Both the position numbers and the translations under genes were made by a program. Shown piece by piece: positions 36,730-54,618 of a stretch of DNA of 64,000 nucleotides (position 1 is the stretch's first letter; each line of letters opens with the position of its first letter). The notes beneath the pieces are model-generated. The model was given only the letters and a program-made list of their open reading frames with translations, was not told the origin of the DNA and did no database searches. The DNA lies in contig NZ_BJVA01000007.1 in the NCBI RefSeq assembly GCF_007988905.1, positions 1 to 64,000 on the forward strand, written 5' to 3'. Source of the stretch: Gluconobacter kanchanaburiensis NBRC 103587. GTDB taxonomy: Bacteria; Pseudomonadota; Alphaproteobacteria; Acetobacterales; Acetobacteraceae.

Positions 36730-36774
36730 GCCGTTTCTGGTAGCCGGGCTGAGTGGTAGAAGGACTGTGTGAAT

Positions 36775-38289
36775 ATGATCGAATCGCACTCCTCCTCATC
36801 CGCTTCCGACAAGTCCTCCGGCGAGGGAGACCTCAGCGCTCTGCTGAGGCGTAGCCCTCCGTCCAGCACAGCGGCGGAACAGGCGCTGCTGGGCGCCATT
36901 CTCACCAATAACAAGGCGTATGAACGGGTTTCGGACTTCCTGGAGCCTGCTCATTTTTCGGATGCTCTTAACGGGCGCATCTATGAGGCCATTGCCCGGC
37001 GTATCGAACGAGGGCAGCTGGCCGATCCCGTAACCATGCGGGCTGAGTTTGAACATACGGGTATTTTGGATGCTGCCGGGGGACCTGTCTATCTGGCCAA
37101 GCTGCTGACGGCGATGGTGGGTATCGTCAATGCTGGCGACTATGGGCGTGTGATTCATGATGCCTGGGTCAGGCGGCAACTGATCGATATTGGCGAAACA
37201 GTCGTTAATAATGCTTTTGGTGCTCGGCCAGATCTGGACGGTTCGGATCAGATTGCCGCGTCCGAAGAGGCCCTGTTCAAACTTGCTACGGAGCGTGGGC
37301 AGGAAGGCGGGTTTGTCTCGTTTACCAAAGCGTTGACGGACGCGGTCAATGTCGCGACGAAGGCTTATCAAAGAACCGGCGATGTGGTCGGGTTGACGTC
37401 GGGTCTGCGGGATTTCGACAAGCGCACAGGTGGGTTGCATCCTTCCGATCTGATCATTCTTGCGGGACGCCCTGCGATGGGAAAAACGGCGCTTGCGACT
37501 AAAATCGCGTTTTCGGCCGCGCGTTCCATTCTGCGGGATGCTGAAGATAGTGGAGAGAAGCCGAAAGGTTCGGTTGCGATTTTCTCTCTGGAAATGTCCT
37601 CCGAGCAGTTGGCGACGCGTATTTTGTCGGGTGAAGCCGAGGTGTCGGGTGAGAAAATCCGGCGTGGCGATATCGGGCAGAAGGAATTTGACCGGTTTGT
37701 CCGTGTTGCGCGTGAATTGCAGAGATTGCCCCTCTATATTGATGACACCCCAGCGATCTCGCTCTCGGCAATGCGGACGCGGTGTCGGCGCCTGGCACGA
37801 ACGCAGGGGCTTAGCCTGGTGGTCGTGGATTACCTGCAACTGATGCGGCCTGCGATCGGGACGAAACCTGATAGTCGCGTGCTGGAAATCTCGATGATCA
37901 CACAGGGACTTAAGGCAATTGCCAAAGAGCTTGCGGTGCCAGTGATTGCTTTGTCGCAGCTTTCACGGCAGGTCGAATCGCGTGAGGACAAACGTCCCAT
38001 GTTGTCAGATCTGCGCGAATCGGGATCCATTGAACAGGATGCAGATGCGGTCATGTTCGTTTATCGCGACGAATATTATTTGCAGCAGCGTCAGCCCAAG
38101 GACAGTGCTTACGATAGTAATGACAAGTTTCAGGTTGCGACAGAGGAGTGGCAGCGCAAGATGGCTCTGGTGCACAACAAGGCAGAACTGATTCTTGAGA
38201 AGCAGCGACATGGACCTACTGGAACCATTCAGCTCTACTTTGAAGGCGAATATACCAGATTTGGAGATCTGGATATCGTTCACGAATAA
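36775..38289 (+). CDS. dnaB: Replicative DNA helicase
   Basis: A 504-residue DnaB-family hexameric helicase. The N-terminal domain (AAEQALLGAILTNNKAYERV) is followed by the RecA-like domain with Walker A GRPAMGKTALA at about residue 230, Walker B LVVVDYLQLM, and the ending GPTGTIQLYFEGEYTRFGDL. The ATG at 36775 is preferred over GTG 36769. It forms the left flank of the phage-like element. A weak stem-loop (38299-38314) follows the stop. Confidence 0.95.
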   Translation: MIESHSSSSASDKSSGEGDLSALLRRSPPSSTAAEQALLGAILTNNKAYERVSDFLEPAHFSDALNGRIYEAIARRIERGQLADPVTMRAEFEHTGILDAAGGPVYLAKLLTAMVGIVNAGDYGRVIHDAWVRRQLIDIGETVVNNAFGARPDLDGSDQIAASEEALFKLATERGQEGGFVSFTKALTDAVNVATKAYQRTGDVVGLTSGLRDFDKRTGGLHPSDLIILAGRPAMGKTALATKIAFSAARSILRDAEDSGEKPKGSVAIFSLEMSSEQLATRILSGEAEVSGEKIRRGDIGQKEFDRFVRVARELQRLPLYIDDTPAISLSAMRTRCRRLARTQGLSLVVVDYLQLMRPAIGTKPDSRVLEISMITQGLKAIAKELAVPVIALSQLSRQVESREDKRPMLSDLRESGSIEQDADAVMFVYRDEYYLQQRQPKDSAYDSNDKFQVATEEWQRKMALVHNKAELILEKQRHGPTGTIQLYFEGEYTRFGDLDIVHE

Positions 38290-38724
38290 CTGCGAAATTG
38301 AGATGGGTATCTCATTGCGAGGTCTTTAAAATATAACATATAGATATGTGGTGTCTGGACGAATTGCATAAAAATTGGTCAGGGTAAAATTTATTTCCGT
38401 GAGCAGAAAACTTTTCTGATTCAGGCCCACAACGGCATAAATCGGTAATTAATATCGTATTGGTACAAATTACCGAAAGAACCAGTTCCTGAAAAAAGCT
38501 GCAATATGAAACCCTTCAGTGTGATTTCTAGCTGGAATTGCGTGAAAGCGCATGCAGCCGAAGCACATATTATGGCGTAAATCCCCAAAAATGATGCCGG
38601 TCAAAATCACGCATATTGGCTCAACGCCATATTTGTTCCTTGACCCATTGGCACAGTGCCATTAATTTATCGTTAATCGGTGGTTGCCATGGGGGTGATC
38701 GACCGGGAGGAACGGAGCTGGTCA
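38290..38724. other. AT-rich gene-free stretch at the left edge of the phage-like element
   Basis: No open frame with a credible start was seen in this 435-bp stretch. It holds a 9-bp inverted repeat (38442-38450 with 38468-38476; 17-nt spacer) and two copies of the palindromic operator-like motif TGGC-N5-GCCA (see separate entries). No direct repeat that could be an att site was seen, and no tRNA gene lies here. Confidence 0.6.
38617..38661. promoter_or_regulatory. Operator-like palindrome pair upstream of a 38-codon ORF
   Basis: TGGCTCAACGCCA (38617-38629) and TGGCACAGTGCCA (38649-38661) both fit WTGGC-N5-GCCAW; the second is a perfect 5-3-5 palindrome. Centres are 32 bp apart, about three helix turns. 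They lie 64-108 bp ahead of the small ORF at 38725. The same motif occurs twice in the region upstream of the XRE regulator. Confidence 0.55.
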
Positions 38725-38841
38725 ATGAATTTAGACTATCTGGCAGCCAGCAATGTTTCCGATTTGTTCATTCCATCGATGACGCGAAATGATCGCATCG
38801 TATCGAATGGGGGGCGCCTGAATGCGTACGGAAACCGGTGA
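38725..38841 (+). CDS. Possible 38-residue protein (start of the phage-like element)
   Basis: An ORF starting MNLDYLAASNVSDLFIPS, preceded by GGGAGGAACGGAG, a good ribosome-binding region with AGGAACGGAG 7-16 bases before ATG. It runs towards the XRE gene on the other strand. No known family was recognised. It could be a real small protein or a remnant of a longer gene. Confidence 0.4.
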   Translation: MNLDYLAASNVSDLFIPSMTRNDRIVSNGGRLNAYGNR

Positions 38842-38849
38842 AACGGTCA

Positions 38850-39242
38850 CTAATGGATCTCCTCATCTGGTCTCTTGGGCGGATCAGGTATGTCGGAAGA
38901 CGTGTTTCTGTCCGTGCTTGGAGCCATGTCTTGCCGCTGGAGCACCAGTTCTGGGTGCAGGGCAGCCAGCCGCAGGGCCAGTTCTTCGTCGGTACGACCG
39001 TTCAGGACGCCTTTCAGAAGAAAATCTGTCGAGACGCGCAGGCGGTTCGACAGTGCCGCAATGAGGAAAACGCTGGGTGCGCGGTCTCCCCGTTCGATCT
39101 TGTTGAGGGTGGAGGCGTCAACGCCCAGAAGGCGGGCGCACTCACTTTGGTTGGGCATGACGAGTTCACGAGCCCAGGAAATGCGAGTTCCGATGGCTCG
39201 TTGGAGTGCAGTCAGAGAGTCCGGGCGCTTGTGTTTGGCCAT
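38850..39242 (-). CDS. XRE-family transcriptional regulator of the phage-like element
   Basis: A 130-residue protein with an N-terminal Cro/CI-type HTH: RISWARELVMPNQSECARLL, then GVDASTLNKIERGDRAPSVF. The C-terminal ~50 residues are short and polar, so there is no LexA-type autoprotease domain and no obvious SOS inactivation. It is transcribed away from the structural genes, in the classic repressor position. Two palindromes in its upstream region are likely binding sites. Its target is inferred. Confidence 0.85.
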   Translation of the reverse strand: MAKHKRPDSLTALQRAIGTRISWARELVMPNQSECARLLGVDASTLNKIERGDRAPSVFLIAALSNRLRVSTDFLLKGVLNGRTDEELALRLAALHPELVLQRQDMAPSTDRNTSSDIPDPPKRPDEEIH

Positions 39243-39258
39243 AAGGCCTTTTTAGCAA

Positions 39259-39316
39259 TGGCTTTATGCCAAATCCAGAAGAAGTTTTTTTTATCACCAT
39301 CTATGGCATTTTGCCA
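39259..39316. promoter_or_regulatory. Operator-like palindrome pair between the XRE gene and the phage genes
   Basis: TGGCTTTATGCCA (39259-39271) and TGGCATTTTGCCA (39304-39316) fit WTGGC-N5-GCCAW, the second as a perfect 5-3-5 palindrome. Centres are 45 bp apart. They flank the divergent promoter region of the XRE regulator and the gene at 39355, the typical place for a phage-type switch. Confidence 0.6.
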
Positions 39317-39354
39317 AAGTTGGTAACAGTCCTGTACTGATGAAGGGTATTGAG

Positions 39355-39660
39355 ATGAGGCAGGTCAAATCAGGTTCTGTACCCCGCCGGGTTTCCGCAG
39401 ATGCTCTGGCAGCCATGCTGGCTTCTGACGGTTGGCTACCTGAGCAGGGTGGACCGCGCAGGGGGCGTGGACGTTCTGCCATAAAAACATCCGGGCGCTC
39501 GAAACAGCGGGCGCGACTGGCAACGGACAGGGAAACGATTGACGCCCTTCCGGCAGGTCATCCTGTTAGTTGGAACGCGCTTTGGGGGGCTGATTTGGCG
39601 CCTGTTTTTCCTGGACTGCAGCCGATGGGTGGGCGTGATTCTGGAATGGAGATCAACTGA
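39355..39660 (+). CDS. Small hypothetical protein of the phage-like element
   Basis: A 101-residue protein, rich in Arg and Gly in the middle (EQGGPRRGRGRSAIKTSGRS), family not recognised. ATG 39355 has a GAAGGG site; an earlier ATG at 39340 would add five residues. Its stop overlaps the next start (TGATG at 39658-39662). The N-terminus (SADALAAMLASDGWLPEQGG) could be a short helical DNA-contact region, but no function can be assigned. Confidence 0.6.
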   Translation: MRQVKSGSVPRRVSADALAAMLASDGWLPEQGGPRRGRGRSAIKTSGRSKQRARLATDRETIDALPAGHPVSWNALWGADLAPVFPGLQPMGGRDSGMEIN

Positions 39661-40202
39661 TGTTTGATAGCGTGCAGGACGTCTCGTCGACGGGATCTTA
39701 TGGAATGTCCGATGCTGTGGTGAGGCCCACGGCTGAGCGTTACGGCCATTCGGATATCCGCGAAGTGTCAAATACATTCCGGGTCGTGAATGCGGTGCAG
39801 TCCATGTATGACGCCGGTGACATTGGCGACGACGAACTGAGTGCGGCAGACCGTTGGTATAGAGAGTATGTTTTTGCTTCTCTTGGGGTGATTGAAAATT
39901 CGCGGTCTGATGGTCGGGTCAGGGAGCGGGGAGATATTCATACATGGATGATGGGTAGAGGAGAATGTTCCGCGCGGATTACGCGCATCCGTGACATGCT
40001 TGGACTGTGCGTCCATGTTCGTCTCGAAATGCTTCTGGCGCGTGAGATGTCATTTTCTGCGATGGCGCGTCATCTCTATCCGGCGTTGTCTGAGGGGCGC
40101 GCCAGAATGAAGGTTTCTGCTCAGTGCGCGCTGGTTCTGGAACAGCTGGCGCACGTCTATGAAGTGTTGTCTCAAGATAAAACGAGAAAAAAAATACGTT
40201 AA
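39660..40202 (+). CDS. Hypothetical protein, possible DUF6456-like regulator
   Basis: A 180-residue, mostly helical protein. The C-terminal part (RMKVSAQCALVLEQLAHVYE), preceded by helix-rich sequence, resembles proteins with a DUF6456-type domain found in phage regulatory regions of alphaproteobacteria, but this match is weak. It overlaps the previous gene by one base and is followed by a gap with a terminator at 40278-40315. Confidence 0.5.
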   Translation: MFDSVQDVSSTGSYGMSDAVVRPTAERYGHSDIREVSNTFRVVNAVQSMYDAGDIGDDELSAADRWYREYVFASLGVIENSRSDGRVRERGDIHTWMMGRGECSARITRIRDMLGLCVHVRLEMLLAREMSFSAMARHLYPALSEGRARMKVSAQCALVLEQLAHVYEVLSQDKTRKKIR

Positions 40203-40277
40203 CGATAAATTATCGCTTGCTATCCGAATGCAGTTTTATTATAAATAATTCATAATGAAGAATTAAATCCTGAATAC

Positions 40278-40315
40278 AAAAAGCCTCAGATCAATTGATA
40301 TGAGGCTTTTATTTT
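40278..40315 (+). terminator. Intrinsic terminator ahead of the 40332 gene
   Basis: AAAAGCCTCA (40279-40288) pairs with TGAGGCTTTT (40301-40310), and ATTTT follows. It separates the early small genes from the 40332 ORF and the terminase genes, so those probably have a separate promoter or depend on antitermination. Confidence 0.78.
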
Positions 40316-40331
40316 GGAAGTTTCCTGATTT

Positions 40332-40766
40332 ATGCAAAAAAACGACATTTATCCTGGTAGCGTTGTTTTGTCAGGTCGGCAGATATTTATTGTTCTTCAG
40401 AAAAATGTGAGTTCAATTTTGGGGTGCCCTCTCGTCTATGAAGGAGAGGTTGTTCATCGAGCCGATGTCAGACTGGAGTGGCATGAGCTTGTGGATGCAG
40501 GTCTCTCCCGTCTTGATGTGCGATGCAGATCCATTCTTTGTCAGCGGTCGCTCCCTTCGGTTCGTGTCATTGGTGTGGTAGCGCAGGAAACTCTTTCTCG
40601 AATTGGTGCGCGAGCCGAGCGTGAACAGAAACAGAGGAATGTTGAAGTTTCACAAAGGGGTGAGCGAGAGCATAGGGGTCGATCACGAAAAGAGCCGGTC
40701 CGTGCTGTCTGGCTGGAAGCCGGTATGATGATGAGCCGCCGGGAGGCTTTGCTGAGAGCCGGGTGA
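40332..40766 (+). CDS. Possible MazF/PemK-like fold protein
   Basis: A 144-residue protein whose first ~90 residues (DIYPGSVVLSGRQIFIVLQK through VRCRSILCQRS and VRVIGVVAQETLSRIGAR) have the strand pattern and spacing of PemK/MazF-like proteins. It is followed by a basic tail. No antitoxin partner is obvious beside it. It precedes terS by about 40 bp. The resemblance is weak, and the function should be taken as unknown. Confidence 0.4.
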   Translation: MQKNDIYPGSVVLSGRQIFIVLQKNVSSILGCPLVYEGEVVHRADVRLEWHELVDAGLSRLDVRCRSILCQRSLPSVRVIGVVAQETLSRIGARAEREQKQRNVEVSQRGEREHRGRSRKEPVRAVWLEAGMMMSRREALLRAG

Positions 40767-40808
40767 TGAGTGCTTCTCAGGTCAGTCCGGGAGAAAAGGT
40801 TTAGGCAG

Positions 40809-41261
40809 ATGGTTGAAGACGTGTTTGGTAAATGTTCTCTGCGACGGGAACAGTCATGGGAACGGAAAAAGAAATTCCTCGAACATCTGTCTGCAAGTGG
40901 AAATATTTCGGAAGCTGGTCGTGTCGCAGATGTCCGGCGGAGTACGTTATATCTGTGGAAAGATACGGATAAGGAATTTTCCTCTCAATGGGAAGAAGCT
41001 CTGGAGGAAGCCGCGGATGCCCTTGAGGCTGAGGCAAGGCGCAGGGCCATAGAAGGCTATGATGAGCCCGTGACGTATGCCGGTCGGGTGGTCTGCGATC
41101 CGGATACGGGAAATCCTCTGGTCCGCAAACGTTATAGTGACGGGTTGATGGCTTTTCTGCTGCGGGCGCATCGTCCCGCACGTTTCAGGCCGGGCGCCGA
41201 GGCAGAAGGGCGTTCGGGTATGATTTCGATCAGTATCAGCCGTGATGACAGCGCCCTTTAG
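40809..41261 (+). CDS. Terminase small subunit
   Basis: A 150-residue protein. An N-terminal HTH (FLEHLSASGNISEAGRVADV then RRSTLYLWKDTDKEF) and an EAARRAIEGYDEPV-like segment, ending with SDGLMAFLLRAHRPARFRPG, match small terminase subunits of alphaproteobacterial phages. ATG 40809 was chosen over an upstream in-frame start at 40770. It overlaps the large terminase gene by 20 bp. Confidence 0.8.
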   Translation: MVEDVFGKCSLRREQSWERKKKFLEHLSASGNISEAGRVADVRRSTLYLWKDTDKEFSSQWEEALEEAADALEAEARRRAIEGYDEPVTYAGRVVCDPDTGNPLVRKRYSDGLMAFLLRAHRPARFRPGAEAEGRSGMISISISRDDSAL

Positions 41262-42561
41262 GCTCAATGATTCGCAGCGTGAAGCGGTGCGGCTGCTTGG
41301 TGGGCCGGCAAGGCATATTCTTCTGAGAGGCGGATCGCGGTCGGGAAAGACCTTTGTTCTGGTTCGGGCTGTTGTGATACGGGCGCTGAAAGCGTCGCAA
41401 AGTCGACATGGCATTTTTCGTCATCGTTTGACGGCGCTGAAGGCGTCGGTTTTGCGGGACACGTTTCCGAAGGTCATGCGGATGTGTTTTCCGCAGGTCG
41501 GGTGGAAGCTGGACCGCCAGGACTGTGTTGTGACGTTCCCGAATGGATCGACGATCTTTTTCGGGGGGCTGGATGACGAACAGCGGACCGAGAAAATTCT
41601 GGGTCTGGAATTTGCGACCGTTTATTTGAACGAGGCCAGCCAGATCAGTTATGGCGCGCGGAACATGCTTCTGACGCGCCTGGCGCAGAAGACGGGTCTG
41701 GCGGTGAAGGAATATATTGATGCCAATCCGCCGAGCATGGGGCACTGGCTTTATGCGCTTTTTGAAAGCGGGATCGAGCCGAAGTCGGGAGAACCGTTAG
41801 CGGACAACAGGTCGCTGTATGCGACGATGATCCTCAATCCGCAGGCTAACCGGGATAATTTGAGCGAGGATTATCTCGCCAGCCTTGAAGCGCTCCCTGA
41901 GCGGGAAAGGCGGCGGTTTCTGTATGGTGAATATCAATCGGTTGTTGAAGGCGCGCTGTGGCGGCTGGAGATATTCCGGCGCGAGCTGGCGATTACGTCA
42001 CAGAGCCGTTCGGATGTTGCGGCTCGGATGCGGCGTATTCTGGTGTCTGTTGATCCTTCGGGGGCTGCGGGACCGGAAGATTACAGGTCCGACGAGATCG
42101 GGATTGTGGTCTGCGGCGTTGATGCGGCTGGTGTGGGGCATGTTCTGGAAGATCTTTCTGCCAGGGATAGTCCGGCGGGTTGGGCTGCAAGAGCCCTGCG
42201 GGCATTTGATGAATGGGGTGCTGAACGCATTGTTGCGGAGCGGAACTTCGGCGGGGCTCTGGTAGAGGGCACGATCCGGAGTGTGCGGTCGCATGCCTCG
42301 GTCAAGCTGGTGACAGCGGCGCGGGGGAAGGCGGCACGCGCAGAGCCGGTTGCAGCGCTCTATGAGGTTGGCAGGGTTGTGCATCATGGGCGGTTTCCGG
42401 CTCTGGAGGATCAGCTCTGCCATTTCTCGGTCAGTGGATATCGTGGTCCACGGTCTCCGGACCGGGCGGATGCGATGGTCTGGGGGCTGAGTGAACTGAT
42501 GCTTGCCGGAAACGGCGGCATGACGGGCTGGAGCTCGTCTGGATTTTCGCTGGCGCGCTGA
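41242..42561 (+). CDS. Terminase large subunit
   Basis: A 439-residue DNA-packaging motor. The ATPase Walker A is LLRGGSRSGKTFVLV (residues about 27-41), and Walker B is in LEFATVYLNEAS. The C-terminal RNase H-like nuclease includes SVDPSGAAGPEDYRSDE and the last acidic motif DRADAMVWGLSEL. It is complete, so the element could in principle package DNA. Confidence 0.93.
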   Translation: MMTAPFRLNDSQREAVRLLGGPARHILLRGGSRSGKTFVLVRAVVIRALKASQSRHGIFRHRLTALKASVLRDTFPKVMRMCFPQVGWKLDRQDCVVTFPNGSTIFFGGLDDEQRTEKILGLEFATVYLNEASQISYGARNMLLTRLAQKTGLAVKEYIDANPPSMGHWLYALFESGIEPKSGEPLADNRSLYATMILNPQANRDNLSEDYLASLEALPERERRRFLYGEYQSVVEGALWRLEIFRRELAITSQSRSDVAARMRRILVSVDPSGAAGPEDYRSDEIGIVVCGVDAAGVGHVLEDLSARDSPAGWAARALRAFDEWGAERIVAERNFGGALVEGTIRSVRSHASVKLVTAARGKAARAEPVAALYEVGRVVHHGRFPALEDQLCHFSVSGYRGPRSPDRADAMVWGLSELMLAGNGGMTGWSSSGFSLAR

Positions 42562-42607
42562 ACCGATCTTTGCGGGTCGGGATGTGGCCTGAAACAATGG
42601 AGAACAC

Positions 42608-44026
42608 ATGGACTGGTTGTCCCTGCAACAGCGTTATGCTGTTCCCGCGGGTGCGTCCGCGCGGACGGCGCGGCTGCTGGCGCTTAAGCGTGTTCTGGAC
42701 GGAACGCAGTATGATGCGTTGCCGCATCCGTTCTCGATGGAGAAGTCTGGGGCGGGAGAATATATTCCGCTGTCCAGCCGGCGTCCTTCTGTTCGCACGA
42801 ATTTGTGCCGGACGGTTGTGGATGAGTCGGTTTCGCTGCTGTTCGGGGATACGCACTGGCCTGGTCTGGTGACGGATGATGCGCGGGTGGCGCATGCTTT
42901 GAGCGCGTTTGCTTCGCAGGCCCGGCTGGCGTCGTTGCTGATGGAAGCGGCGCGGCTGGGGTCGGTGGGATCGGTTGCGATCCTGTTCGAGGTCTCGGCC
43001 GGGGTTCCGAAGTTGTCCGTGCTGGAAACAGCATATCTGACGCCGTTCTGGGATGATGCGACAGGGGAACTGCTTCGGGTTGAGGAGCGGTTTCTGGTCC
43101 GGGGGCGGGATCTGGCGGCGCAGGGTTATCCGATTGCGGATGAGCTTCTGAGTGCCCAGTTCTGGTGGCAGCGGGTCTGGACGCCGTTGGATTGTGCGGT
43201 TTCCGTGCCCTGGCTGGTGGGAATGGATGGCGGGGTTCGGGACGAGAGCCGCTCTGTTCGGCATGGGTTGGGGTTCGTGCCTATTGTGTGGATACGCAAT
43301 CTGGGTGGGCCTTGTGGGCGTGATCCGGAAGGTGAGTGCACGTTCGAGCGGGCCATCGATACGGTGATCGAAGCGGATTATCTGCTGTCACAGGCAGGTC
43401 GGGGGCTGAAATATGGCTCAGATCCGACGCTGGTTCTGAAGACAGGTGGATTTTCCGACGGGATTGCACATCAGGGGGGGGCAGCTTCGGCGTTGACGCT
43501 TCCCCCCGAGGGTGATGCCAAACTGCTGGAAATTAACGGGAACGCAGCGGGGGCGGTGCTCGATCATTATCGGGAATTGCGTCTGGTGGTGTTGGAGCAG
43601 TTGCATGGCAACCGGGCTCATGGTGACCGGGTTGGCGGCGCGCAGTCGGGGAAGGCCATGGAGATGATGTGTCAGCCTCTGATCTGGCTGGTGGATCGTT
43701 TGCGCCACTCCTACGGCGAAGGTGCGCTGATTTCGATTTACCGGATGGCGTGCCAGTTTTCCTGTGTTCTGGAAAACGGGCTTCGGATCGGGGGAACGCT
43801 GGTCAAGGACCTGCCGTACTGCCGCATGAGTTTGCGGTGGCCGGCGTGGTTTCCGTCCACGGATCCGGAGCTTCTTTCACTGACGCAGGGGCTGGTGACG
43901 GCTGTTTCCAATGGAATTCTGAGCCGCGAAACGGCGGTTCGGATGTTTGCGATGGCATCGGGAAATTCTGATCCGAATACGGAATGGAAAATGCTGGAGC
44001 AATGGTGTGCTTCTGAACAAGCATGA
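42608..44026 (+). CDS. Portal protein (SPP1 gp6-like)
   Basis: A 472-residue portal that forms the dodecameric DNA gate of the capsid. The N-terminal PSVRTNLCRTVVDESVSLLF and the central AIDTVIEADYLLSQAGRGLK and SGKAMEMMCQPLIWLVDRLR resemble SPP1 gp6-type portals of myo- and siphoviruses. A run of eight G lies at 43474-43481 (encoding Gly-Gly), in frame. The last codons overlap the next gene by four bases. Confidence 0.82.
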   Translation: MDWLSLQQRYAVPAGASARTARLLALKRVLDGTQYDALPHPFSMEKSGAGEYIPLSSRRPSVRTNLCRTVVDESVSLLFGDTHWPGLVTDDARVAHALSAFASQARLASLLMEAARLGSVGSVAILFEVSAGVPKLSVLETAYLTPFWDDATGELLRVEERFLVRGRDLAAQGYPIADELLSAQFWWQRVWTPLDCAVSVPWLVGMDGGVRDESRSVRHGLGFVPIVWIRNLGGPCGRDPEGECTFERAIDTVIEADYLLSQAGRGLKYGSDPTLVLKTGGFSDGIAHQGGAASALTLPPEGDAKLLEINGNAAGAVLDHYRELRLVVLEQLHGNRAHGDRVGGAQSGKAMEMMCQPLIWLVDRLRHSYGEGALISIYRMACQFSCVLENGLRIGGTLVKDLPYCRMSLRWPAWFPSTDPELLSLTQGLVTAVSNGILSRETAVRMFAMASGNSDPNTEWKMLEQWCASEQA

Positions 44027-44538
44027 GTGTTGACGGGGGAATGATGTCCGGAACTGATGACACCATCGAGGATGTGGAGGCTCTGCGTCGGGCGCTGAAT
44101 GAAGCGCGGAGCGAGGTTGAGGCGGTTCGTCAGGAGATGACGGATGTGGTGACGCGACAGGAGACGCTTCAGCGCAGTCATGAGGAAGCGCTGGCCCGGG
44201 TGCGGCAGGATAGTGACCGGGAGGTCATTGTGGCGGCGCTTCGTGCTGAAGCGATCCGCAATGGTGCGCATAACCCTGATGATGTCGTGCGGTTGATTGA
44301 CCTGAAGGGGATCGATCGGGGCGAGGACGGCTCAGTGGTCGGTGTGGTTGAGGCTTTGCAGCAGGCCCGTCAGGAGCGGGCCTATTTGTTCGGCGAGGCG
44401 CTCCGGCCTGGATATTCGAGCGGAACGACTGTCGGGCAGGCAGCGCCGCGGCCGGGTGGGATTGAACCGTTCAATGCGCGCGCCGCCAGCGAGGCGGATT
44501 ACGAAACGCGCAAATGGCAGTTTCTGGCCCAGGGTTGA
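44023..44538 (+). CDS. Probable capsid scaffolding protein
   Basis: A 171-residue, highly charged protein with a long predicted coiled coil (VEALRRALNEARSEVEAVRQ and LQRSHEEALARVRQDSDREV), then a short loop-rich end. Proteins like this between portal and major capsid genes are usually scaffolds (phage minor structural GP20 / DUF4355 type). It starts at ATG 44023 overlapping the portal stop. No prohead protease gene is present nearby. Confidence 0.75.
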   Translation: MSVDGGMMSGTDDTIEDVEALRRALNEARSEVEAVRQEMTDVVTRQETLQRSHEEALARVRQDSDREVIVAALRAEAIRNGAHNPDDVVRLIDLKGIDRGEDGSVVGVVEALQQARQERAYLFGEALRPGYSSGTTVGQAAPRPGGIEPFNARAASEADYETRKWQFLAQG

Positions 44539-44609
44539 AGCCCGGGACGATCTTTGACCGGGTCTGATGGCAGGCCGGGTTCAGAAAACACATTTACGGA
44601 AAAAAACAC

Positions 44610-45989
44610 ATGAGCATTGATAATTTTCCTGTTCAGCTTCAGGCCGCCATTCAGCAGGGTTTTCTGGCCCGCGAATTCGAGAATGGTCTGAAATCCCGAC
44701 TGGGTTTCCGGCAGGTTGCCGATCGTGAAGTGTTCCCGAATGCCATTGGTGAGACGCTGACGAAAACCCGCAAGAGTCTGAAGGCTCCAGTGACGACGCC
44801 GCTGAACCCGACGGGTAATACGAATTTCGACAATGGTCTAAGCCCGTCTGGCTGGTCGGTTGAACAGTATACGCTGTCCATCAACCAGTATGGCGATACG
44901 ATTGATCTGAACATGGTCACCAGTGGTGTGGGGATTGCGTCGCAGTTCCTGGCCAACGCCAATACTAATGGTGTGCAGGCCATGCAGTCTCTTGACCGTC
45001 TGGCACGCAATACGCTGTTTGGTGGTGCGCAGAATGGTGTGGGCGGTTATCTGGGTGGCAACACGCGTGTGACGGCGACGCTGGGGAGCGCTGGTGACAC
45101 CATTGCGGTGGATGATATTCGTGGTTTTCAGTCCGTGATCGTGAATGGCCAGGTTACGCCAATCAGTGCAACCAACGGCATGACGGTCACTATTGGGAGT
45201 GACGTTTATACACTTGTTAGCGTTACGGAAGATGCGACGAATGTTTCTACAGCACCTGGCGGTGTTTCGGGTCAGATGACGTTTTCGGCTTCTGTGTCGG
45301 TTTCGGATGGTACGGAAGGTCAGGCCGTTGTGGCGTCCACGGCACCGCTGGTGATCCGTCCGAATGGTCGTCTGACGACTGCTGCGTTGCAGACGGCGAG
45401 TGCGAACGGTCTGGCAGATACGTTGGGCATTCAGCAGGTTCTGGCCGGTGTGGCGACGCTGCGGCGTAATAACGTGCCGATGATTAACGGTGCGTATCAC
45501 TGTTATCTCGATGACCTTCAGCTTCTGTCGCTTTTCCGGGATCCGGATTTCAAGCATCTGTACCGTGGGGCTTATGGTTCGGAAGAGTATCGTTCTGGAC
45601 AGGTTATAGAGCTTCTGGGTGTGCGGTTCATACCGACGACTGAAGCGCCTCAGCAGGTATCGCTGGGTGCAGGTTCCATTCACCGTGCGCTGCTTCTTGG
45701 GCAGGGTGCGCTTATTGAGGGTGACTGTGCTCTGACAGGGCATTCCGATATTCCGGATGCGGAGAGGGCGCTGATCGAGATGGTGGATAGCGTGGCCATG
45801 GTGACGCGTGAACCGCTTGATCGTCTGCGCCAGATCATTGCGCAGTCCTGGTACTGGATTGGTGGCTTTGCGCTTCCGACAGATGTGACGGCGGATATGA
45901 CCGTCATTCCGACGGCAACGAACAGCTATCTCAAACGTGGTGTGGTGATCGAGAGCCTTGGTACGGATGCTCTTGGTCTGACGTTCTGA
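44610..45989 (+). CDS. Major capsid protein
   Basis: A 459-residue capsid protein, placed after the scaffold gene. The N-terminal region (GLKSRLGFRQVADREVFPNA) is followed by DTIDLNMVTSGVGIASQFLA. A likely inserted domain, about residues 160-240, is rich in Thr, Val and Gly, and the capsid body then resumes (QQVLAGVATLRRNNVPMING, GVRFIPTTEAPQQVS). An HK97-type fold is probable but not proven. Ribosome-binding sequence before it is weak (ACGGAAAAAA). Confidence 0.85.
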   Translation: MSIDNFPVQLQAAIQQGFLAREFENGLKSRLGFRQVADREVFPNAIGETLTKTRKSLKAPVTTPLNPTGNTNFDNGLSPSGWSVEQYTLSINQYGDTIDLNMVTSGVGIASQFLANANTNGVQAMQSLDRLARNTLFGGAQNGVGGYLGGNTRVTATLGSAGDTIAVDDIRGFQSVIVNGQVTPISATNGMTVTIGSDVYTLVSVTEDATNVSTAPGGVSGQMTFSASVSVSDGTEGQAVVASTAPLVIRPNGRLTTAALQTASANGLADTLGIQQVLAGVATLRRNNVPMINGAYHCYLDDLQLLSLFRDPDFKHLYRGAYGSEEYRSGQVIELLGVRFIPTTEAPQQVSLGAGSIHRALLLGQGALIEGDCALTGHSDIPDAERALIEMVDSVAMVTREPLDRLRQIIAQSWYWIGGFALPTDVTADMTVIPTATNSYLKRGVVIESLGTDALGLTF

Positions 45990-46042
45990 GGTCTTCCGGC
46001 CCCTGCCTGAACGGCGGGGGCCTCTCTTGCGGGGAGAAGGAT

Positions 46043-46444
46043 ATGTCCGGAACGGTTGGTTTGTCGACGGATCTTCTCTCGGAAGGAGAGAAGATGGATA
46101 TTCGTCGGTTCTGTGGTTATCCCGCCACCGGATCGCGGGAAGGGAATCAGGAATCCTGGCGTTTCTTCCAGGTCGAAGGAGCGCTGGAGTGGCGGATGAA
46201 CTGTCTGTCAGGGGCGGAGCTTCAGCAGATACGGCTTTATCTGGAGCAGCTTTATCCATTGGAAAATGCGATCACTGCGTCTTCAGACAATCTGGATACG
46301 GCGCGGGCTGCGGCTTGGTATCACAACGGTCGGGAAATTCAGGACCGGGTGATGCTTTTCAATCTGTGGCGCCGACGGCTGTGTGTCTTTCTTGGTGTAA
46401 CGGGCGGCCTCGAATTGCAGGACGGACGGGCAATTGTAGTTTGA
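46043..46444 (+). CDS. Probable head-tail connector
   Basis: A 133-residue protein with a good GGGGAGAAGG site. It has LEWRMNCLSGAELQQIRLYL and LYPLENAITASSDNLDTARA, helical segments like those of gp6-type head-tail adaptors. The match is based mainly on position (after the capsid gene) and size. Confidence 0.6.
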   Translation: MSGTVGLSTDLLSEGEKMDIRRFCGYPATGSREGNQESWRFFQVEGALEWRMNCLSGAELQQIRLYLEQLYPLENAITASSDNLDTARAAAWYHNGREIQDRVMLFNLWRRRLCVFLGVTGGLELQDGRAIVV

Positions 46445-46454
46445 GGAGCGCGGT

Positions 46455-47054
46455 GTGCAGCAGACAATGATCGCAGCCAGGCTCTCCCGGGGATACGCTC
46501 GGGCAGCGACGGTGCTGGGTGCTTCGGGGGAGCAGTATCGCCCTTCGGGTGGAGTGTTGCCGATGGAGACGCTCCATGCCCAGCCCACGCTGGCTTTCGA
46601 CGTGGATGCGGAATTTTCGTTTACGCAGCCGATCGGGTGGGGAATTCCGACGGAGTATGTTCTGACGGATCGACGTGATGATACGGAGGTAGGTGATATC
46701 CTTGTCGCGAGTGGTCGGACATATTTCGTGGCGTCTGTTGAGCCTTTGCGGCCCCCGCTCTGTGTGGTGTGCAGCAGGACGGTTTCGGTCAGCGGGGTAA
46801 CGGGAACTGTGCAGACGCTTGTTTCCGAGTGTCCTGCGGGCATCATCATGCGGGCGAAGGGGGAATCTTCAGGAAGTGGAGTTCCTGGTGCGACCCGACC
46901 GGGACAGTCAGTCATATATCTGCCGCTTCTGCCCGGGGTGGTGCTGACGCCTTACATGACGGTGACGACGGATCTGGGAACGACATATACCATCAATGCA
47001 GTGGAAATATCGGAGTTCGGCATCCGCTGTACCATGTCGCTTCAGCAGGTCTGA
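46455..47054 (+). CDS. Hypothetical virion-associated protein
   Basis: A 199-residue, beta-rich protein, family not recognised (YILTDRRDDTEVGDILVAS-like stretch at 40-100; ending FGIRCTMSLQQV). It lies between a connector-like gene and a protein upstream of the sheath, so it is probably a head-completion or neck protein. The start overlaps nothing; the preceding gene ends 10 bp upstream. Confidence 0.55.
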   Translation: MQQTMIAARLSRGYARAATVLGASGEQYRPSGGVLPMETLHAQPTLAFDVDAEFSFTQPIGWGIPTEYVLTDRRDDTEVGDILVASGRTYFVASVEPLRPPLCVVCSRTVSVSGVTGTVQTLVSECPAGIIMRAKGESSGSGVPGATRPGQSVIYLPLLPGVVLTPYMTVTTDLGTTYTINAVEISEFGIRCTMSLQQV

Positions 47055-47065
47055 GGAGGACGGGA

Positions 47066-48049
47066 ATGACAGACGCTTCCAGGGTTGGGTTGGCGCTTGC
47101 CTATAACTGTGCACAGGTTCTTTATCCGCAAGGACTGTCGGGCGCTTCCGTGACGGGACGTCAGGTGGTTCTGAGGCGGGGATGGCTGTTGCCCAGCGAT
47201 CTTTTTACGGCGCAGAATATCCGGAATAACATCGATTTCGTTACCGTTACAATGTCGCCCCGAAAGATGCCTGAATGGATTGAACCCTTGGGACGTCCAT
47301 GGCGGGTGCAGCAGAAGGTTGCTCCTACGGTCGGGGTCGTCGTTGTGGATGGGACAGTAAAAATTGTCTTTTCCGGGGATGTTACGCCTGCAGGTGTCGT
47401 GGCGGTCTGGCTGGATGATGTGCTGTATGAGGGCGCTCCTTCCGCGGCTTATGCGGTGATGGCACAGGACACACCTGAGACAGTCGCAGCCGCTCTTGCG
47501 GCAGCGCTGAGCGGGGGTGTCGCGACTGGCGCAGTGATCAGCGTGCCGGGTCGCATGGTGAACGGGCATGCCGGTGGATACGGTCAGTCGGTTCGGGTGA
47601 CGCGGCGTCAGGCTCAGCTTTATCGCGTATCGATCTGGACAGCGGATGCAACGGCGCGTGAAACGTTGGCTTCCGTTCTGGATACCGCGCTTGCTGAACA
47701 GAGTTGGATCAGCACTCTGGATGGGCGGGAGGCTCAGCTCCGCTTTCAGAGCGTGGAAGATGTCGACACGATGCAGAACGAAGCGCTGTATCGGCGGGAT
47801 TATTTCTATGAGCTGGTTTTTGACACCCTTCAGGTGCAATGGGCTTCTGACATGCTGTGTGGCATCGGAACCCTGTCTGGTGAAAAGGGACTTCCAGCGT
47901 CTTTCGGCATTCTGGCTCCCGGGGCTCAAAACCAGACTGTTACGGCGGCTTTGGAGGCGATGCAGGCGGTGATCGCCACACGGGCTGCGGCGACGTCCTA
48001 CCCCGGTCTGGGGGTTGATCGGTTCGGGACAGTGGTTGCGGCTGCCTGA
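47066..48049 (+). CDS. Hypothetical head-tail or tail-terminator protein
   Basis: A 327-residue protein with a strong GGAGGA site just before ATG 47066. It begins MTDASRVGLALAYNCAQVLY and includes MSPRKMPEWIEPLGRPWRVQ and a block rich in Ala/Val. No family was recognised. Its place between connector genes and the tail sheath suggests a neck/tail-terminator function, which is inferred. The frame is open upstream to 46769, but that overlaps the previous gene. Confidence 0.55.
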   Translation: MTDASRVGLALAYNCAQVLYPQGLSGASVTGRQVVLRRGWLLPSDLFTAQNIRNNIDFVTVTMSPRKMPEWIEPLGRPWRVQQKVAPTVGVVVVDGTVKIVFSGDVTPAGVVAVWLDDVLYEGAPSAAYAVMAQDTPETVAAALAAALSGGVATGAVISVPGRMVNGHAGGYGQSVRVTRRQAQLYRVSIWTADATARETLASVLDTALAEQSWISTLDGREAQLRFQSVEDVDTMQNEALYRRDYFYELVFDTLQVQWASDMLCGIGTLSGEKGLPASFGILAPGAQNQTVTAALEAMQAVIATRAAATSYPGLGVDRFGTVVAAA

Positions 48050-48147
48050 CTTCAAGGCTGTGTTAAAGAGCTGAAATTTCATTCAGGAAAGCGGGTTATT
48101 TCCTCGGGGAAGTGCCCGCTTTCTGCATTTTGGAGAGCGATCCGGGG

Positions 48148-49635
48148 ATGTCTCTGGTCTATCAGGCGGGAACACTGAATACCACGGCACTGACTGTGCC
48201 AAATCTTTATGTGCAGATCGCCCAGCCGCAGACGTTGGCTTTGGCGGGGGCTGCGTCTTCGCAACTGGGGGTCGTCGGAACTGCCGGCTGGGGCCCGGTG
48301 GGAATGCCGCTGCCAATCGGCGGCATGAGCGATTATATTGCGGCGTTCGGCGCCAAGCAGAATAAAACGACAGATGCGGGCTTGGCAGTGAATATTGCCG
48401 TGATGCAGCAGGCGTCATCTTTTGTGGTTGTCCGGGTAACGGACGGCACGGATGTTGCTGCGACGGGCAGCATTGTTGGTGTGGCAATCCAGGCTGTTCA
48501 TACGGGGAGTGCAGGAAATGGCATCGGGGCTGCGGTAACGGCGACGGGGTCTGGCTATGCTCTTGCGGTTACACATGCCGACCTGGGTGCGACGACGTAT
48601 GCTGGAGCGGACTGGTCTGCGCTTGCGTCTGCTGTGGCGCAGGATCTGAATGCTCTTGTGAAGATCGTATTGCCGGAGACCGTCCCGGCGTTGGCGGTTG
48701 GGAATGTGGCGCTCTCGGGCGGTACGGATGGTGGAGAGCCGACGACCGCACAGTTTGTGGGAGAGGATAGCGCGGTCCGGACGGGCATGTATGCGCTGCG
48801 TGGTCAGGGATGCGCGGTGGCGCTGCTGCATGGTGTGACGGACAGCACGTCTTATACGGCACAGTCGGCTTTCGGAACCTCGGAAGGGGTTTACATGATT
48901 GCGGTAGGTCCAGCCTCCGACAGCGTGACGAATGCCATTTCGGTCAAGGCGGGTAGTGGGCTGGATGCGGCATCGGTCAAGCTCATGTTTGGCGACTGGC
49001 TCTGGTGGAGTGATGATACGTATGGTGTGATGCTGGTCAGTCCTCAGGCATTTTCGGGAGGAAAGTTGGCAGCGCTTTCGCCTGAGCAGTCCAGCCTGAA
49101 CAAGGCTCTTGCGGGGATTGTGGGCAGCCAGAAGGCTGGCCTGACCGGAAGCAGCGCAACATATTCAACTGCCGAGTTGTCCGCTCTATTTACGGCGGGG
49201 ATCGACGTGATCTGCAATCCGGCGCCAGGTGGCGCTTACTGGGCGGTGCGCTGTGGGCATAACTCGTCCAGCAAGAGTACTGTGAATGGTGACAGTTATA
49301 CACGCCTGACAAATTACATTGCGTCGTCGCTTGCTGGTGGCATGGGCGGATATGTGGGTGAAGTTATCAACGACACGCTTTTCAGCGATATCCGTTCAAC
49401 TCTTCTGGGTTTTCTGTCGTCTCTGCTGTCGCAGAACATTCTGGGCGTTCAGAATGGTGAGCTGCCTTACAGTGTAGTGTGTGATTCCAGTAATAACCCA
49501 CAGTCTCGGACGGCACTGGGCTATGTGCAGGCGGATGTGGCGGTCCGCTACCAAGGCATCAACGAGAAATTTATTGTCAATCTGCAGGGTGGCGCTTCCG
49601 TTACGGTGTCGTCTGCGTCGGGGAGTGTCGGCTAA
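48148..49635 (+). CDS. Contractile tail sheath protein
   Basis: A 495-residue sheath protein of the Myoviridae type. An N-terminal part (TVPNLYVQIAQPQTLALAGA to SSQLGVVGTAGWGPVGMPLP) and the C-terminal end (RTALGYVQADVAVRYQGINE, KFIVNLQGGASVTV) match phage sheath family features. Its presence shows the particle has a contractile tail, unlike the siphovirus-type RcGTA. An in-frame GTG at 48112 is possible, but ATG 48148 gives the usual N-terminus. Confidence 0.88.
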   Translation: MSLVYQAGTLNTTALTVPNLYVQIAQPQTLALAGAASSQLGVVGTAGWGPVGMPLPIGGMSDYIAAFGAKQNKTTDAGLAVNIAVMQQASSFVVVRVTDGTDVAATGSIVGVAIQAVHTGSAGNGIGAAVTATGSGYALAVTHADLGATTYAGADWSALASAVAQDLNALVKIVLPETVPALAVGNVALSGGTDGGEPTTAQFVGEDSAVRTGMYALRGQGCAVALLHGVTDSTSYTAQSAFGTSEGVYMIAVGPASDSVTNAISVKAGSGLDAASVKLMFGDWLWWSDDTYGVMLVSPQAFSGGKLAALSPEQSSLNKALAGIVGSQKAGLTGSSATYSTAELSALFTAGIDVICNPAPGGAYWAVRCGHNSSSKSTVNGDSYTRLTNYIASSLAGGMGGYVGEVINDTLFSDIRSTLLGFLSSLLSQNILGVQNGELPYSVVCDSSNNPQSRTALGYVQADVAVRYQGINEKFIVNLQGGASVTVSSASGSVG

Positions 49636-50061
49636 ATGGCAAATCCATACAGCATTGGCCGGGATTGCCGGATTACGGTTCTGTGGAACGGGCAGCGGGT
49701 TGATCTGCGGGATGTCACGTCTTTCAACGCGTCCCAAGAAACACAGGCCCTGCGCGCCAATCCCCTGAACGGGGTTCCGCTGGAATTCAATGTGCCCAAT
49801 GGCTGGCGGGGCGTATTTCAGATCGCTCGTGCCAATGCAGCTCTGGACAATCTGGTTGCGGCTATTGAGGCGGCGTACTGGAATGCCGGTACTGTCGGGA
49901 GCGGCACGATCTATCAGTACGTGACTGAACCGGACGGAACGACCAGTACCTGGGAATTCAGCAATGTCTCGATGCAACTGAAGAGTGATCCCTGGCAGGC
50001 GGACCATATGATCCATCAGACGGTTCAGTTCTTTGCTTCTACGAGGACGAAGATTTCGTGA
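49636..50061 (+). CDS. Tail tube protein
   Basis: A 141-residue protein located directly after the sheath, with no gap between stop and start. Features are RDCRITVLWNGQRVDLRDVT and WEFSNVSMQLKSDPWQADHM. The size, order and beta-rich sequence fit a tube (FII/gpM-like) protein. Confidence 0.82.
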   Translation: MANPYSIGRDCRITVLWNGQRVDLRDVTSFNASQETQALRANPLNGVPLEFNVPNGWRGVFQIARANAALDNLVAAIEAAYWNAGTVGSGTIYQYVTEPDGTTSTWEFSNVSMQLKSDPWQADHMIHQTVQFFASTRTKIS

Positions 50062-50545
50062 GTGATTTTCCGCAGGAACTTGTTCTTTCAGATGACCGTC
50101 GTCTTGCGCTTCGTGAAATCGATCCTGCCGATATGCTGGATCTGATCGAGGCGGCAGGAAGCGCGATCAATGGTGCGTCTGCGTCCGCGTGGCTTGGCTA
50201 TGCGGAAATGATCTGCTCGGTGACGGCTATTGATGGCGTTCCGGTTCAGATGCCGCAGACCAAGGAAGAAATCAGGGATCTGGCACGTCGGGTCGGAAAA
50301 ACCGGAATTGCAGCGCTTACGCCCCTGTTTGAACGGGGTGTGGACGAGGATAGCCGGGACGTCGCAAAAAACTGAGCCGGCACCCCGGGTTTCAGGAGAT
50401 GCTTTATCTGCTGGATCACGGGGTGCCTTGGGATGTGTTGAGGGGATGGTCCCGGGCCCGGCGGATGGCTGCCTGTGTGATTACTGCTGAGCGGAACGGG
50501 CACAGCTTTGACTGGGATATGATGTCCTATCGGGGAGAAATATGA
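50058..50545 (+). CDS. Tail assembly chaperone pair, -1 frameshift product (G/GT-like)
   Basis: The upstream frame (50058-50375) makes a 105-residue protein (DRRLALREIDPADMLDLIEA) whose end is the heptamer A AAA AAC followed by a stop (TGA at 50373). A -1 slip on this heptamer would enter a second frame that continues to 50545 as SRHPGFQEMLYLLDHGVPWD, then LRGWSRARRMAACVITAERN. The fused product would be 162 residues. This is the classical arrangement of phage tail assembly chaperones just before the tape-measure gene. The efficiency of the slip is unknown. Confidence 0.75.
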
Positions 50546-51390
50546 TGCGGAAAACTTTCTGGCGAAATATTCTCCTGATCAGACCATTTTTTGTCGGTTC
50601 TTCTGTGGCGCTTATGCGGGGATCACTGCTGAGAGCAGCGGTTCCTCGCATCAAGAGACAGGCTGGTGTCGCGGGTGTCAGAAAACGCCCGGTTTTTTCA
50701 AAAAACATGACCTCGGTCAGAACGAGGCCTAATATTCTGGTGAACGAGGTGGCGCGGGTGCAGGATATGACACGGGGTGTGATGCCTTCAGTGCCATATG
50801 CGCGCATTCTGCGACATGGATCTGAAGTGCTTGCTCCGTTGCAGGTGTCTTTTCCGGAAAAGGCTCAAAAATTTACAGGAAAAACGTGTCGGCCAAGTGT
50901 CAAATGGCAGATGGATAGTGTCACGAATAAGGTTGTTGGACGGAACAGAAAAGATTTTTCAGCTTTCAACCTGCGGAAGCGGACTGTTTTATCGGTAACG
51001 GCCGCAGCAAGCGCTGTTCGGCATCCTACGTCGCCGAAAGTGGTGGGGGCTGGAAGACAATACCGCTTCGACCACGAGAATGGGCAGGTTCTTCATAAAG
51101 CGACTATTTCGCAAGAGGGTGCTTTACATGTGCCTAGGGTGCGGCAGTCAGTCAGTGTGGAGAGTGCGGTTCACAGAGATGGGCAAGAAAAACGTTCCTT
51201 ATCAGGAATGGATCGTGAGATTGCACGACATGATGCTCAGTTCCACGAACTCTATTCCGGCTCCGACGTGAAGGATACAAATTTTTCGTTGGGAGATCGA
51301 CGAGTACGGATGGCGGCCCGGCGCTCTGGGAGTGGCGTGGACGAAATCATGCAGCCTCAATATCCGGGGCGGAGTATTGGCTTTCTCTGA
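50542..51390 (+). CDS. Short protein in the tape-measure position
   Basis: A 282-residue basic protein in the slot where tail tape-measure genes normally lie (after the chaperones, before gpU/N-like genes). An N-terminal hydrophobic stretch (ILLIRPFFVGSSVALMRGSL) is followed by RARK-rich sequence and a VPYARILRHGSEVLAPLQVS segment. It lacks the long coiled-coil/hydrophobic repeat of typical 600-1200-residue tape measures. It could be a very short tape measure or another tail protein. ATG 50542 overlaps the preceding frame's stop. Confidence 0.5.
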   Translation: MMRKTFWRNILLIRPFFVGSSVALMRGSLLRAAVPRIKRQAGVAGVRKRPVFSKNMTSVRTRPNILVNEVARVQDMTRGVMPSVPYARILRHGSEVLAPLQVSFPEKAQKFTGKTCRPSVKWQMDSVTNKVVGRNRKDFSAFNLRKRTVLSVTAAASAVRHPTSPKVVGAGRQYRFDHENGQVLHKATISQEGALHVPRVRQSVSVESAVHRDGQEKRSLSGMDREIARHDAQFHELYSGSDVKDTNFSLGDRRVRMAARRSGSGVDEIMQPQYPGRSIGFL

Positions 51391-51408
51391 GAGAGGAGAT
51401 GTCCCCTG

Positions 51409-52323
51409 ATGGGAGTTGGGCTTTCTGATATAGAAAACGCCATTGGCGCTGTAGGACGGCTCGGTGCATCATCGCCTGTAATACTGGGAAATCTTGTTCT
51501 GACAGGAATTGAGGTTCCTGACTCGCTACAGGTCGGCGGTCGCCAGATGCTGGTTGTGCATCGCTTGCCTGGCGGTGGGAAAGTTGTTGATGCTCTGGGA
51601 AATGACCCGGGGCGTCTGGAACTTAAGGGGCGTTTTCTTGGACCGGACGCGCAGATGCGAGCGCAGGCGGTTGAGCGTATGAGAATGGTGGGACAGCAGG
51701 TCGTCTTTTCAGCGGCCGGTCTTTCCGTACAGGTCTGGATTGCCCAGTTTAATTATGTCTATCAGGCCAAAGGAGCCGTCTGCTCCTACACGTTGATTCT
51801 TGAACGGCCCCAGGAAACGACGTCCACGCAGGCTTCAAGTACCTTATCCGGAGTTCTGGGAGAAGATGTCGGGAGTGCTCTGGACAGTTTCTCGGGCGTC
51901 GTTTCCGAGGTTTCCGAGGGCTTATTTGCGGCAGCAGGACAAGTATCCTCTGTGGTCGGTCAGGTCATGCCTCTGGCCAGCCTGATCGGTGTGGGAGGAT
52001 TTGCTGCAAAGGTGACCGATGCTCTAGGAACTGTTGGGAGCGTGGCACAAAGTGGAATGAATCTTGCGGCTGTGCCTTCAGCCCTTACCTCTGTTGCCGG
52101 AGGTCTGGAAAGTGCCGGGAATGGCCTGAATTCCCTTATTGCAGGTACAGGACAAAATATTGAAGCTATTCAGCCGGTCAACAGCGTTTCTCTAAATGCG
52201 CTGGGGCAGAATGCAGCATTATTGAGTGCCGCGGCGGATGCAGGCGGCCTCGTTAACCGGGCGGTGGCGAATATTTCACTATCGCAAGGGCAAGAGATGT
52301 CTCCCCCGTCTGTTTTCGCGTGA
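51409..52323 (+). CDS. Tail protein with P2 gpU/Mu gpN-like N-terminal domain
   Basis: A 304-residue protein. The first ~130 residues (VGGRQMLVVHRLPGGGKVVD to SVQVWIAQFNYVYQAKGAVC) resemble the DNA circularisation/tail protein U family found after tape measures in P2- and Mu-like phages. The remainder is low-complexity and hydrophobic (VVGQVMPLASLIGVGGFAAK). A GGAGATG-type site precedes ATG 51409. Confidence 0.68.
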   Translation: MGVGLSDIENAIGAVGRLGASSPVILGNLVLTGIEVPDSLQVGGRQMLVVHRLPGGGKVVDALGNDPGRLELKGRFLGPDAQMRAQAVERMRMVGQQVVFSAAGLSVQVWIAQFNYVYQAKGAVCSYTLILERPQETTSTQASSTLSGVLGEDVGSALDSFSGVVSEVSEGLFAAAGQVSSVVGQVMPLASLIGVGGFAAKVTDALGTVGSVAQSGMNLAAVPSALTSVAGGLESAGNGLNSLIAGTGQNIEAIQPVNSVSLNALGQNAALLSAAADAGGLVNRAVANISLSQGQEMSPPSVFA

Positions 52324-52330
52324 GGAAATA

Positions 52331-54574: not shown

Positions 54575-54618
54575 AATTATGAGAGCGGCACATTACTCAA
54601 CCGCTCCACGAGGATGCG

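Follow-up and report, generated by a model that had tools for sequence, protein, structure and literature searches.

Four copies of one palindrome stand around a single regulator gene, beside a phage-derived gene cluster, in Gluconobacter kanchanaburiensis, which raises the question of what these sites control. We analyzed the 64,000-nt window that contains them (strain NBRC 103587, NZ_BJVA01000007.1, positions 1–64,000), in which a first-pass annotation, made from the sequence alone, had described the palindromes and proposed them as operators of the neighboring XRE-family regulator. Our overall reading, to which we assign a probability of roughly 0.8, is that these sites (O1 to O4 below) are operators of the repressor of a tamed phage, and that a small open reading frame (sORF), controlled by a putative promoter (P_A) and a LexA-type box, would encode an antirepressor that releases the phage-derived structural operon.

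Palindromes around an XRE-family repressor gene

All four sites are exact matches of TGGC-N5-GCCA (38617–38629, 38649–38661, 39259–39271, and 39304–39316), and two of them are perfect 5-3-5 palindromes (TGGCA-CAG-TGCCA at 38649 and TGGCA-TTT-TGCCA at 39304), as first described. Assuming a uniform spread, ~1.4e-4 clusters of four sites within 700 bp are expected genome-wide, in line with the earlier argument that chance is an unlikely source. The total in the window (six matches, with two more at 21125 and 55228, versus 1.76 expected, and six or more in 3 of 100 shuffles) is mildly unusual by itself; it is the clustering that counts. The chromosome-wide search that the first-pass annotation had proposed yielded 88 matches, compared with 65 for a reversed-pattern control, and requiring an A or T outside each arm left 18 matches in the whole genome, compared with 7 for the control. 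The matches indeed cluster at this locus, which holds four of the 18, but not here alone: four others form a single cluster at G000:C5:71734-71890, while ten are scattered.

The placement of the sites was revised in part. The 39259/39304 pair does occupy the divergent region, with the repressor start (39242) on one side and the structural operon on the other. The 38617/38649 pair, previously described as preceding a 38-codon open reading frame (ORF; 38725–38841), is located beyond the repressor stop, on a putative promoter reading towards the repressor. We rejected the 38-codon ORF as a target gene, as its frame is kept only in the closest species.

To follow the sites across genomes, we counted 35 loci (L042–L076), obtained by a pattern-seeded search of genome contigs and hence not a random sample, with repressor relatives that are 76–98% identical. 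These represent seven genera: Gluconobacter (20 loci), Asaia (8), Neokomagataea (3), and Tanticharoenia, Acidomonas, Brytella, and Swaminathania (one each). Weak repressor matches (29–37%; L025–L027 and L077) were excluded from the counts; one isolated motif match was present in L025 and none in L026. Outside the counts, we also scanned loci L006–L024 and 13 viral-contig loci, many of them from the same genomes; all four sites were found in 11 of the 13, and the other two (L038 and L041) are cut by a contig end. Among the 35 loci, all four operators were exact in 31 and three were exact in the remaining four, where O4 (L063 and L064), O1 (L065), or O2 (L076) deviated. The distance between O1 and O2 was exactly 32 bp in each of the 33 loci with both, and the outermost exact upstream site begins 586–652 bp before the repressor start. 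In L076 (Asaia prunellae), the repressor frame is interrupted and O2 carries a 1-bp deletion, which could reflect a mistake in the assembly or a naturally lost repression.

A similar arrangement was found in a second, unlike prophage (genome G215, locus L023), which carries a 62%-identical repressor and four such sites, the two distal ones at the same 32-bp distance from each other, though ~1 kb further off. Phage helicase, primase, terminase, and portal genes are found close to this module, and the prophage has an integrase near a tRNA-Glu. Over 60 kb, a tblastn search (E 1e-4) matched only the repressor and the sORF, and none of the window's structural genes. Because the same sites surround the repressor of such an unlike prophage, they appear to go with the repressor rather than with the structural genes. 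The assignment of the four palindromes as operators of the XRE repressor is well supported by this comparison, in which the sites accompany the repressor gene at similar offsets across seven genera and one other prophage.

The repressor itself contains a helix-turn-helix (HTH) domain (HTH_3, PF01381, E=1.4e-10), is also matched by PHROG repressor families, and was found in all 26 genomes of the genus that were searched. Its HTH resembles those of ImmR, P22 C2, and SinR, with 7t8i (ImmR) and 1adr (P22 C2) as the nearest solved chains. Only HTH families were matched in Pfam (E 0.001), with no self-cleaving or protease domain among them. Searching the window's genome with the repressor revealed a single further relative, a weak one (37% over 49 aa, E=0.007), and no plasmid copies of the regulatory region were found. 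The organization is that of the P22 C2, 434, and ImmR-type repressors of phages and integrative and conjugative elements, which pair a small HTH repressor with palindromes that border both its gene and a divergent operon, whereas the site sequence here is TGGC-N5-GCCA. A literature search for this string, with most subscription journals outside its coverage, returned papers that by title concern only eukaryotic or retroviral subjects. Since the start codon follows the putative −10 element of the repressor gene within a few bases, the repressor mRNA may be almost leaderless. The predicted features are collected in Table 1.

Table 1. Predicted features of the regulatory region and the adjacent cluster, in window coordinates.
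Feature	Position	Strand	Remarks
O1, distal operator, TTGGCTCAACGCCAT	38616–38630		Both distal sites exact in 33/35 loci, at a constant distance of 32 bp
O2, operator filling the spacer of P_A, TTGGCACAGTGCCAT	38648–38662		See O1
P_A, putative promoter	38640–38668	+	−35 TTGACC (38640–38645), 17-bp spacer, −10 TAATTT (38663–38668)
CtrA-like box, TTAA-N7-TTAA	38662–38676		Overlaps the −10 of P_A; in 35/35 loci
LexA-type box, GTTTCCGATTTGTTC	38755–38769		Degenerate in the window; fixed place ~80–95 bp beyond the repressor stop
sORF, candidate antirepressor	38822–39064	+	Conserved 80 codons, Cys-rich; tail-to-tail with the repressor gene
XRE (HTH_3) repressor	38850–39242	-	130 aa, without a matched S24 protease domain
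Putative extended −10 of the repressor gene, TGCTAAAAA	39249–39257	-	Directly beside O3; read from the sequence
O3, proximal operator, ATGGCTTTATGCCAA	39258–39272		Exact in 35/35 loci
O4, operator between repressor and structural operon, ATGGCATTTTGCCAA	39303–39317		Exact in 33/35 loci
Phage-derived cluster	39340–58986	+	Small and large terminase, portal, scaffold, major capsid, sheath, baseplate, fibre, ORFs without known function

Putative promoter and antisense reading frame beyond the repressor stop

The distal operator pair coincides with strongly conserved promoter-like hexamers. A script searching for TTGAC followed by C, A, or T, a 17-bp spacer, and TAATTT, TAATAA, TAATTA, or TAAAAA recovered P_A in 33 of the 35 loci; the two missed were L068, where an earlier TTGACC was caught, and L076, in which the register is off because of the 1-bp deletion. 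Over the 145 bp that surround the distal pair, mean column conservation was 0.77–0.94 from O1 through the −35, O2, the −10, and the TTAA box, compared with 0.47 upstream of O1 and 0.63 downstream. P_A was not listed by a generic promoter scan, and its putative activity is suggested by the conserved hexamers. The adjoining TTAA-N7-TTAA element follows what we take to be a CtrA-like consensus, and one of its halves may simply be the −10. In other alphaproteobacteria, phage promoters are reported to be possible targets of CtrA binding and regulation (PMC9437464).

A second box lies between P_A and the sORF. We presume GTTC-N7-GTTC to be the LexA-type consensus; this was exact in 12 of the 35 loci, including 11 of the 12 outside Gluconobacter and Neokomagataea, and had one mismatch in 18 loci, among them the window. 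In this genome, lexA and a radical-SAM gene are likewise preceded by a box of this type. As the pattern occurs often in the genome (58 forward and 50 reverse matches, versus 23 and 16 for the control), the box alone would say little, and the argument comes from its fixed place. In G215 (L092/L093), the distal operator pair is followed by a different ORF of 86 codons, and a second LexA-type box, GAACATAATAAGAAC, stands immediately before that ORF.

Downstream of P_A, the sORF lies on the opposite strand from the repressor gene, whose 3′ half it overlaps by 215 bp. Its core approximates LVSWAxQxCxKxCFCPCxxPCxxAGAPxLGA, with 14 invariant columns in 24 sequences, and an ATG is found 11–16 codons upstream of VSWA in each of the 30 loci examined, many of them with Shine-Dalgarno-like stretches by eye. 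To estimate coding selection, we calculated omega-like values from nonsynonymous and synonymous counts in 15 non-independent pairs. In the core of the overlap, the value was 0.36 in the sORF frame, 1.64 in the repressor frame, and 1.93 and 0.91 in the two other plus frames; in the HTH part, it was 0.077 in the repressor frame and 6.6 in the sORF frame. Judged by these values, the sORF is under selection at the protein level, and the locus would encode two proteins on opposite strands of the same DNA, with selection readable in both frames. In L071, the repressor ends 11 codons early, yet the sORF core is kept.

With only HTH domains matched in the repressor, induction by the SOS response would need something like an antirepressor. 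Coliphage 186 Tum is a LexA-controlled antirepressor of this kind. In Gifsy prophages, LexA-controlled antirepressors act on non-cleavable repressors, according to Lemire 2011 (PMC3121763), and by analogy we tentatively propose the sORF product as an antirepressor, at somewhat below even odds. What the locus appears to share with the Gifsy and 186 systems is that no protease domain was matched in the repressor and that a LexA-type box, inexact in the window, precedes a small ORF; here, in contrast, the ORF overlaps the repressor gene in antisense and antirepression is a candidate function.

The phage-derived cluster and its relatives

In the gene cluster beyond O4, the large terminase is found beside the repressor in all 35 loci, and the sheath gene is present in all seven genomes of the genus in the family sample, with relatives in 131 of 299 family genomes. 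The matched cluster genes are colinear in five genomes (G250, G131, G048, G025, and G149), three of which belong to other genera. On the right, the host gene g59006 follows in four of these five (not in G131), and hsp33-argF-argD lies beyond the cluster in both genomes in which the DNA was read further. On the left, dnaB is the neighbor in 19 of 20 Gluconobacter loci and in G250, lies ~7 kb off in G131, and was not found in the DNA fetched for G048, G025, and G149. We rejected the window's dnaB as a phage helicase: it is the only strong DnaB of the genome, and it passes the NCBI host equivalog cut-off and not the phage one. The ORFs scanned from 39.3 to 59.0 kb gave no match to an integrase or a replication gene, the sole related hint being a weak transposase-family match of the small terminase (phrog_157, E=2e-4).

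The cluster genes tested with unsaturated synonymous divergence (dS) had a ratio of nonsynonymous to synonymous divergence (dN/dS) of ~0.03–0.3, by which measure the cluster is under purifying selection. Compared with L042, L049, and L052, however, dS was 0.14–0.48 for the repressor, terminase, and portal (38850–44026) versus ~1.0 for the adjacent dnaB (36769–38289), which suggests recent exchange of part of the cluster and argues against purely vertical descent.

Close relatives of the cluster are phiKX1 and phiKX2 (LC644975 and LC644976), temperate phages of Komagataeibacter with a capsid 66.5% identical to that of the window; megablast revealed no near-identical phages. In phiKX1, the terminase, portal, coat, sheath, and baseplate genes follow the same order as here, whereas an annotated antirepressor, an exonuclease, and many other genes precede the terminase. 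The two phage genomes measure 53 kb, compared with ~20 kb for the cluster. We best read the cluster, on these gene comparisons, as a domesticated phiKX-like myovirus.

Mitomycin-induced, myovirus-like particles, with tails of 72–95 nm in Gluconobacter, have been reported for three Gluconobacter strains and one Acidomonas strain, while the phage genomes sequenced there come from Acetobacter and Komagataeibacter (Omata 2021, PMC8566455). In the window, the ORF in the tape-measure position (50542–51390) has 282 codons, compared with 292–345 aa in four relatives and 742 aa in phiKX1; it matches no family, and calling it the tape measure is a guess from position. By the usual length rule a shorter tape-measure ORF predicts a shorter tail, so that the published Gluconobacter particles are not clearly products of this cluster.

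Gene transfer agents (GTAs) offer another comparison. The RcGTA lineage is characterized by a non-contractile tail and an RcGTA-like capsid, and RcGTA chains are in the PDB. The cluster, in contrast, encodes a contractile sheath and a capsid for which the PDB held no credible solved relative (E≤1), both of which speak against membership in this lineage; the lack of a matched integrase among the cluster ORFs scanned is a trait that it shares with GTAs. RcGTA and the Caulobacter GTA resemble the present case in being phage-like clusters kept across species under a dedicated repressor; that of the Caulobacter GTA, RogA, has a LexA/cI-like domain and binds a promoter with the inverted repeats GGAA-N4-TTCC (PMC9632790). 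CtrA and LexA also co-occur with GTAs in the literature; packaging and transfer of DNA by the cluster here would be hypothetical. Judged by title, the GTA literature for Gluconobacter and acetic acid bacteria held no paper on this cluster, and no literature on a domesticated prophage in Acetobacteraceae was found, in searches with most subscription journals outside their coverage.

A candidate circuit and competing explanations

Taken together, these elements suggest a circuit in which dimers of the XRE repressor (130 aa) would bind the four palindromes. With three helical turns between them, O1 and O2 would shut P_A, O3 would mediate autoregulation at the repressor's own promoter, and O4, along with O3, would cover the promoter region of the structural operon. 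P_A and the LexA-type box would control the sORF, the transcript of which would be switched on by DNA damage and perhaps also by a CtrA cell-cycle signal. With convergent antisense transcription as an aid, the Cys-rich product would then inactivate the repressor, which apparently cannot be cleaved, and the structural operon would be released. Such a circuit would give a specific and testable mode of control to a phage-derived cluster that has counterparts in other genera and whose repressor occurs in all 26 genomes searched of an industrial genus.

Several observations weigh against this circuit. Neither inspection by eye nor a promoter scan revealed a −10 element for the structural operon beside O4, and the O3–O4 spacing ranges from 42 to 57 bp, with no common geometry. 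In the window, the LexA-type box departs from consensus by one base, and it is absent in five of the 35 loci (three Neokomagataea and two Gluconobacter). The structural models offer little help: that of the repressor is moderate (predicted local distance difference test, pLDDT, of 67), with a best Foldseek match of only E = 1.7e-3, and that of the sORF, which matches no family and for which no homologue of known role was found, is poor (pLDDT 52). Finally, a host transporter gene has a cluster of the motif too, and the motif could therefore belong to another regulator.

This second site set (L001 9735-9890) comprises four motif copies, three of them at 26-bp spacing, between a POT-family peptide-transporter gene and a porin gene. 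The first-pass annotation had named a comparable motif density in non-phage intergenic DNA as a reason to abandon its proposal, and such density was found at this one place, the POT promoter region. Three to five copies precede the POT gene in 25 of the 26 genus genomes, mostly in DNA that does not align to the query; the exception (L125/G250) has the repressor and the POT gene without exact POT sites. Five copies were found at the POT gene, 49% identical, of G079 (L161), a genome that has 700 bp of its repressor region in identical form in common with Brytella acorum. The motif is not phage-exclusive; either the repressor may also control the POT gene, or a second regulator may share the motif. 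We rejected the porin as the common target, as none of 13 porin loci from other genera (six from genomes with the repressor and seven from genomes without it) had AT-centred sites, and POT genes with sites also occur without a porin match. Two of these loci held single GC-centred matches (L134 and L138), and L133 is cut at the N-terminal side of the porin, so that its upstream DNA is missing. A family-wide search found motif pairs in at least 109 of 299 genomes, but GC-centred chance pairs abound in GC-rich genomes, so it is not a clean specificity test.

These POT sites, recurring across the genus and in one Brytella genome, are what would favor a different host regulator as owner of the motif, with POT as its main target and the phage cluster and XRE gene merely among its targets. 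We consider this quite improbable, since the sites stay with the XRE gene in the G215 prophage, where both motif pairs, among the matches listed, are at the XRE locus, and since the window's genome holds a single, weak XRE relative besides the repressor. An ordinary prophage, decaying or recently exchanged, with the operators as its immunity region, is also unlikely. It would fit the close relationship to phiKX1 and phiKX2, which are mitomycin-induced temperate phages, the lower dS of terminase, portal, and repressor relative to dnaB, and the different left neighbor outside Gluconobacter. It is harder to reconcile with a repressor present throughout the genus, a cluster that is colinear in five genomes with a right-hand neighbor common to four, the low dN/dS, and the lack of matched integrase or replication genes, bar the weak phrog_157 match. 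That the palindromes are terminator stems or chance occurrences is extremely improbable. A terminator scan flagged the 38649–38661 site but none of the other three; the stem there has 5 pairs, 1.4 such hits are expected in shuffles, and the bases that follow the site form the conserved −10/CtrA-like element; the ~1e-4 chance clusters expected and the conservation of site and spacing likewise speak against this explanation.

If the XRE repressor does own both site sets, a wider role is conceivable, though doubtful: a phage repressor turned host regulator in Gluconobacter and Brytella, with one operator type serving both the domesticated cluster and POT, and removed by an SOS-controlled, possibly CtrA-controlled, antisense Cys-rich antirepressor. 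The release of phage-like particles would then be tied to peptide scavenging under stress. Near the porin and POT sites, we also observed an AT-rich element of ~28 bp (L001 ~9992-10019; query 433-460), which is present in all 26 genus genomes, even where little else aligns.
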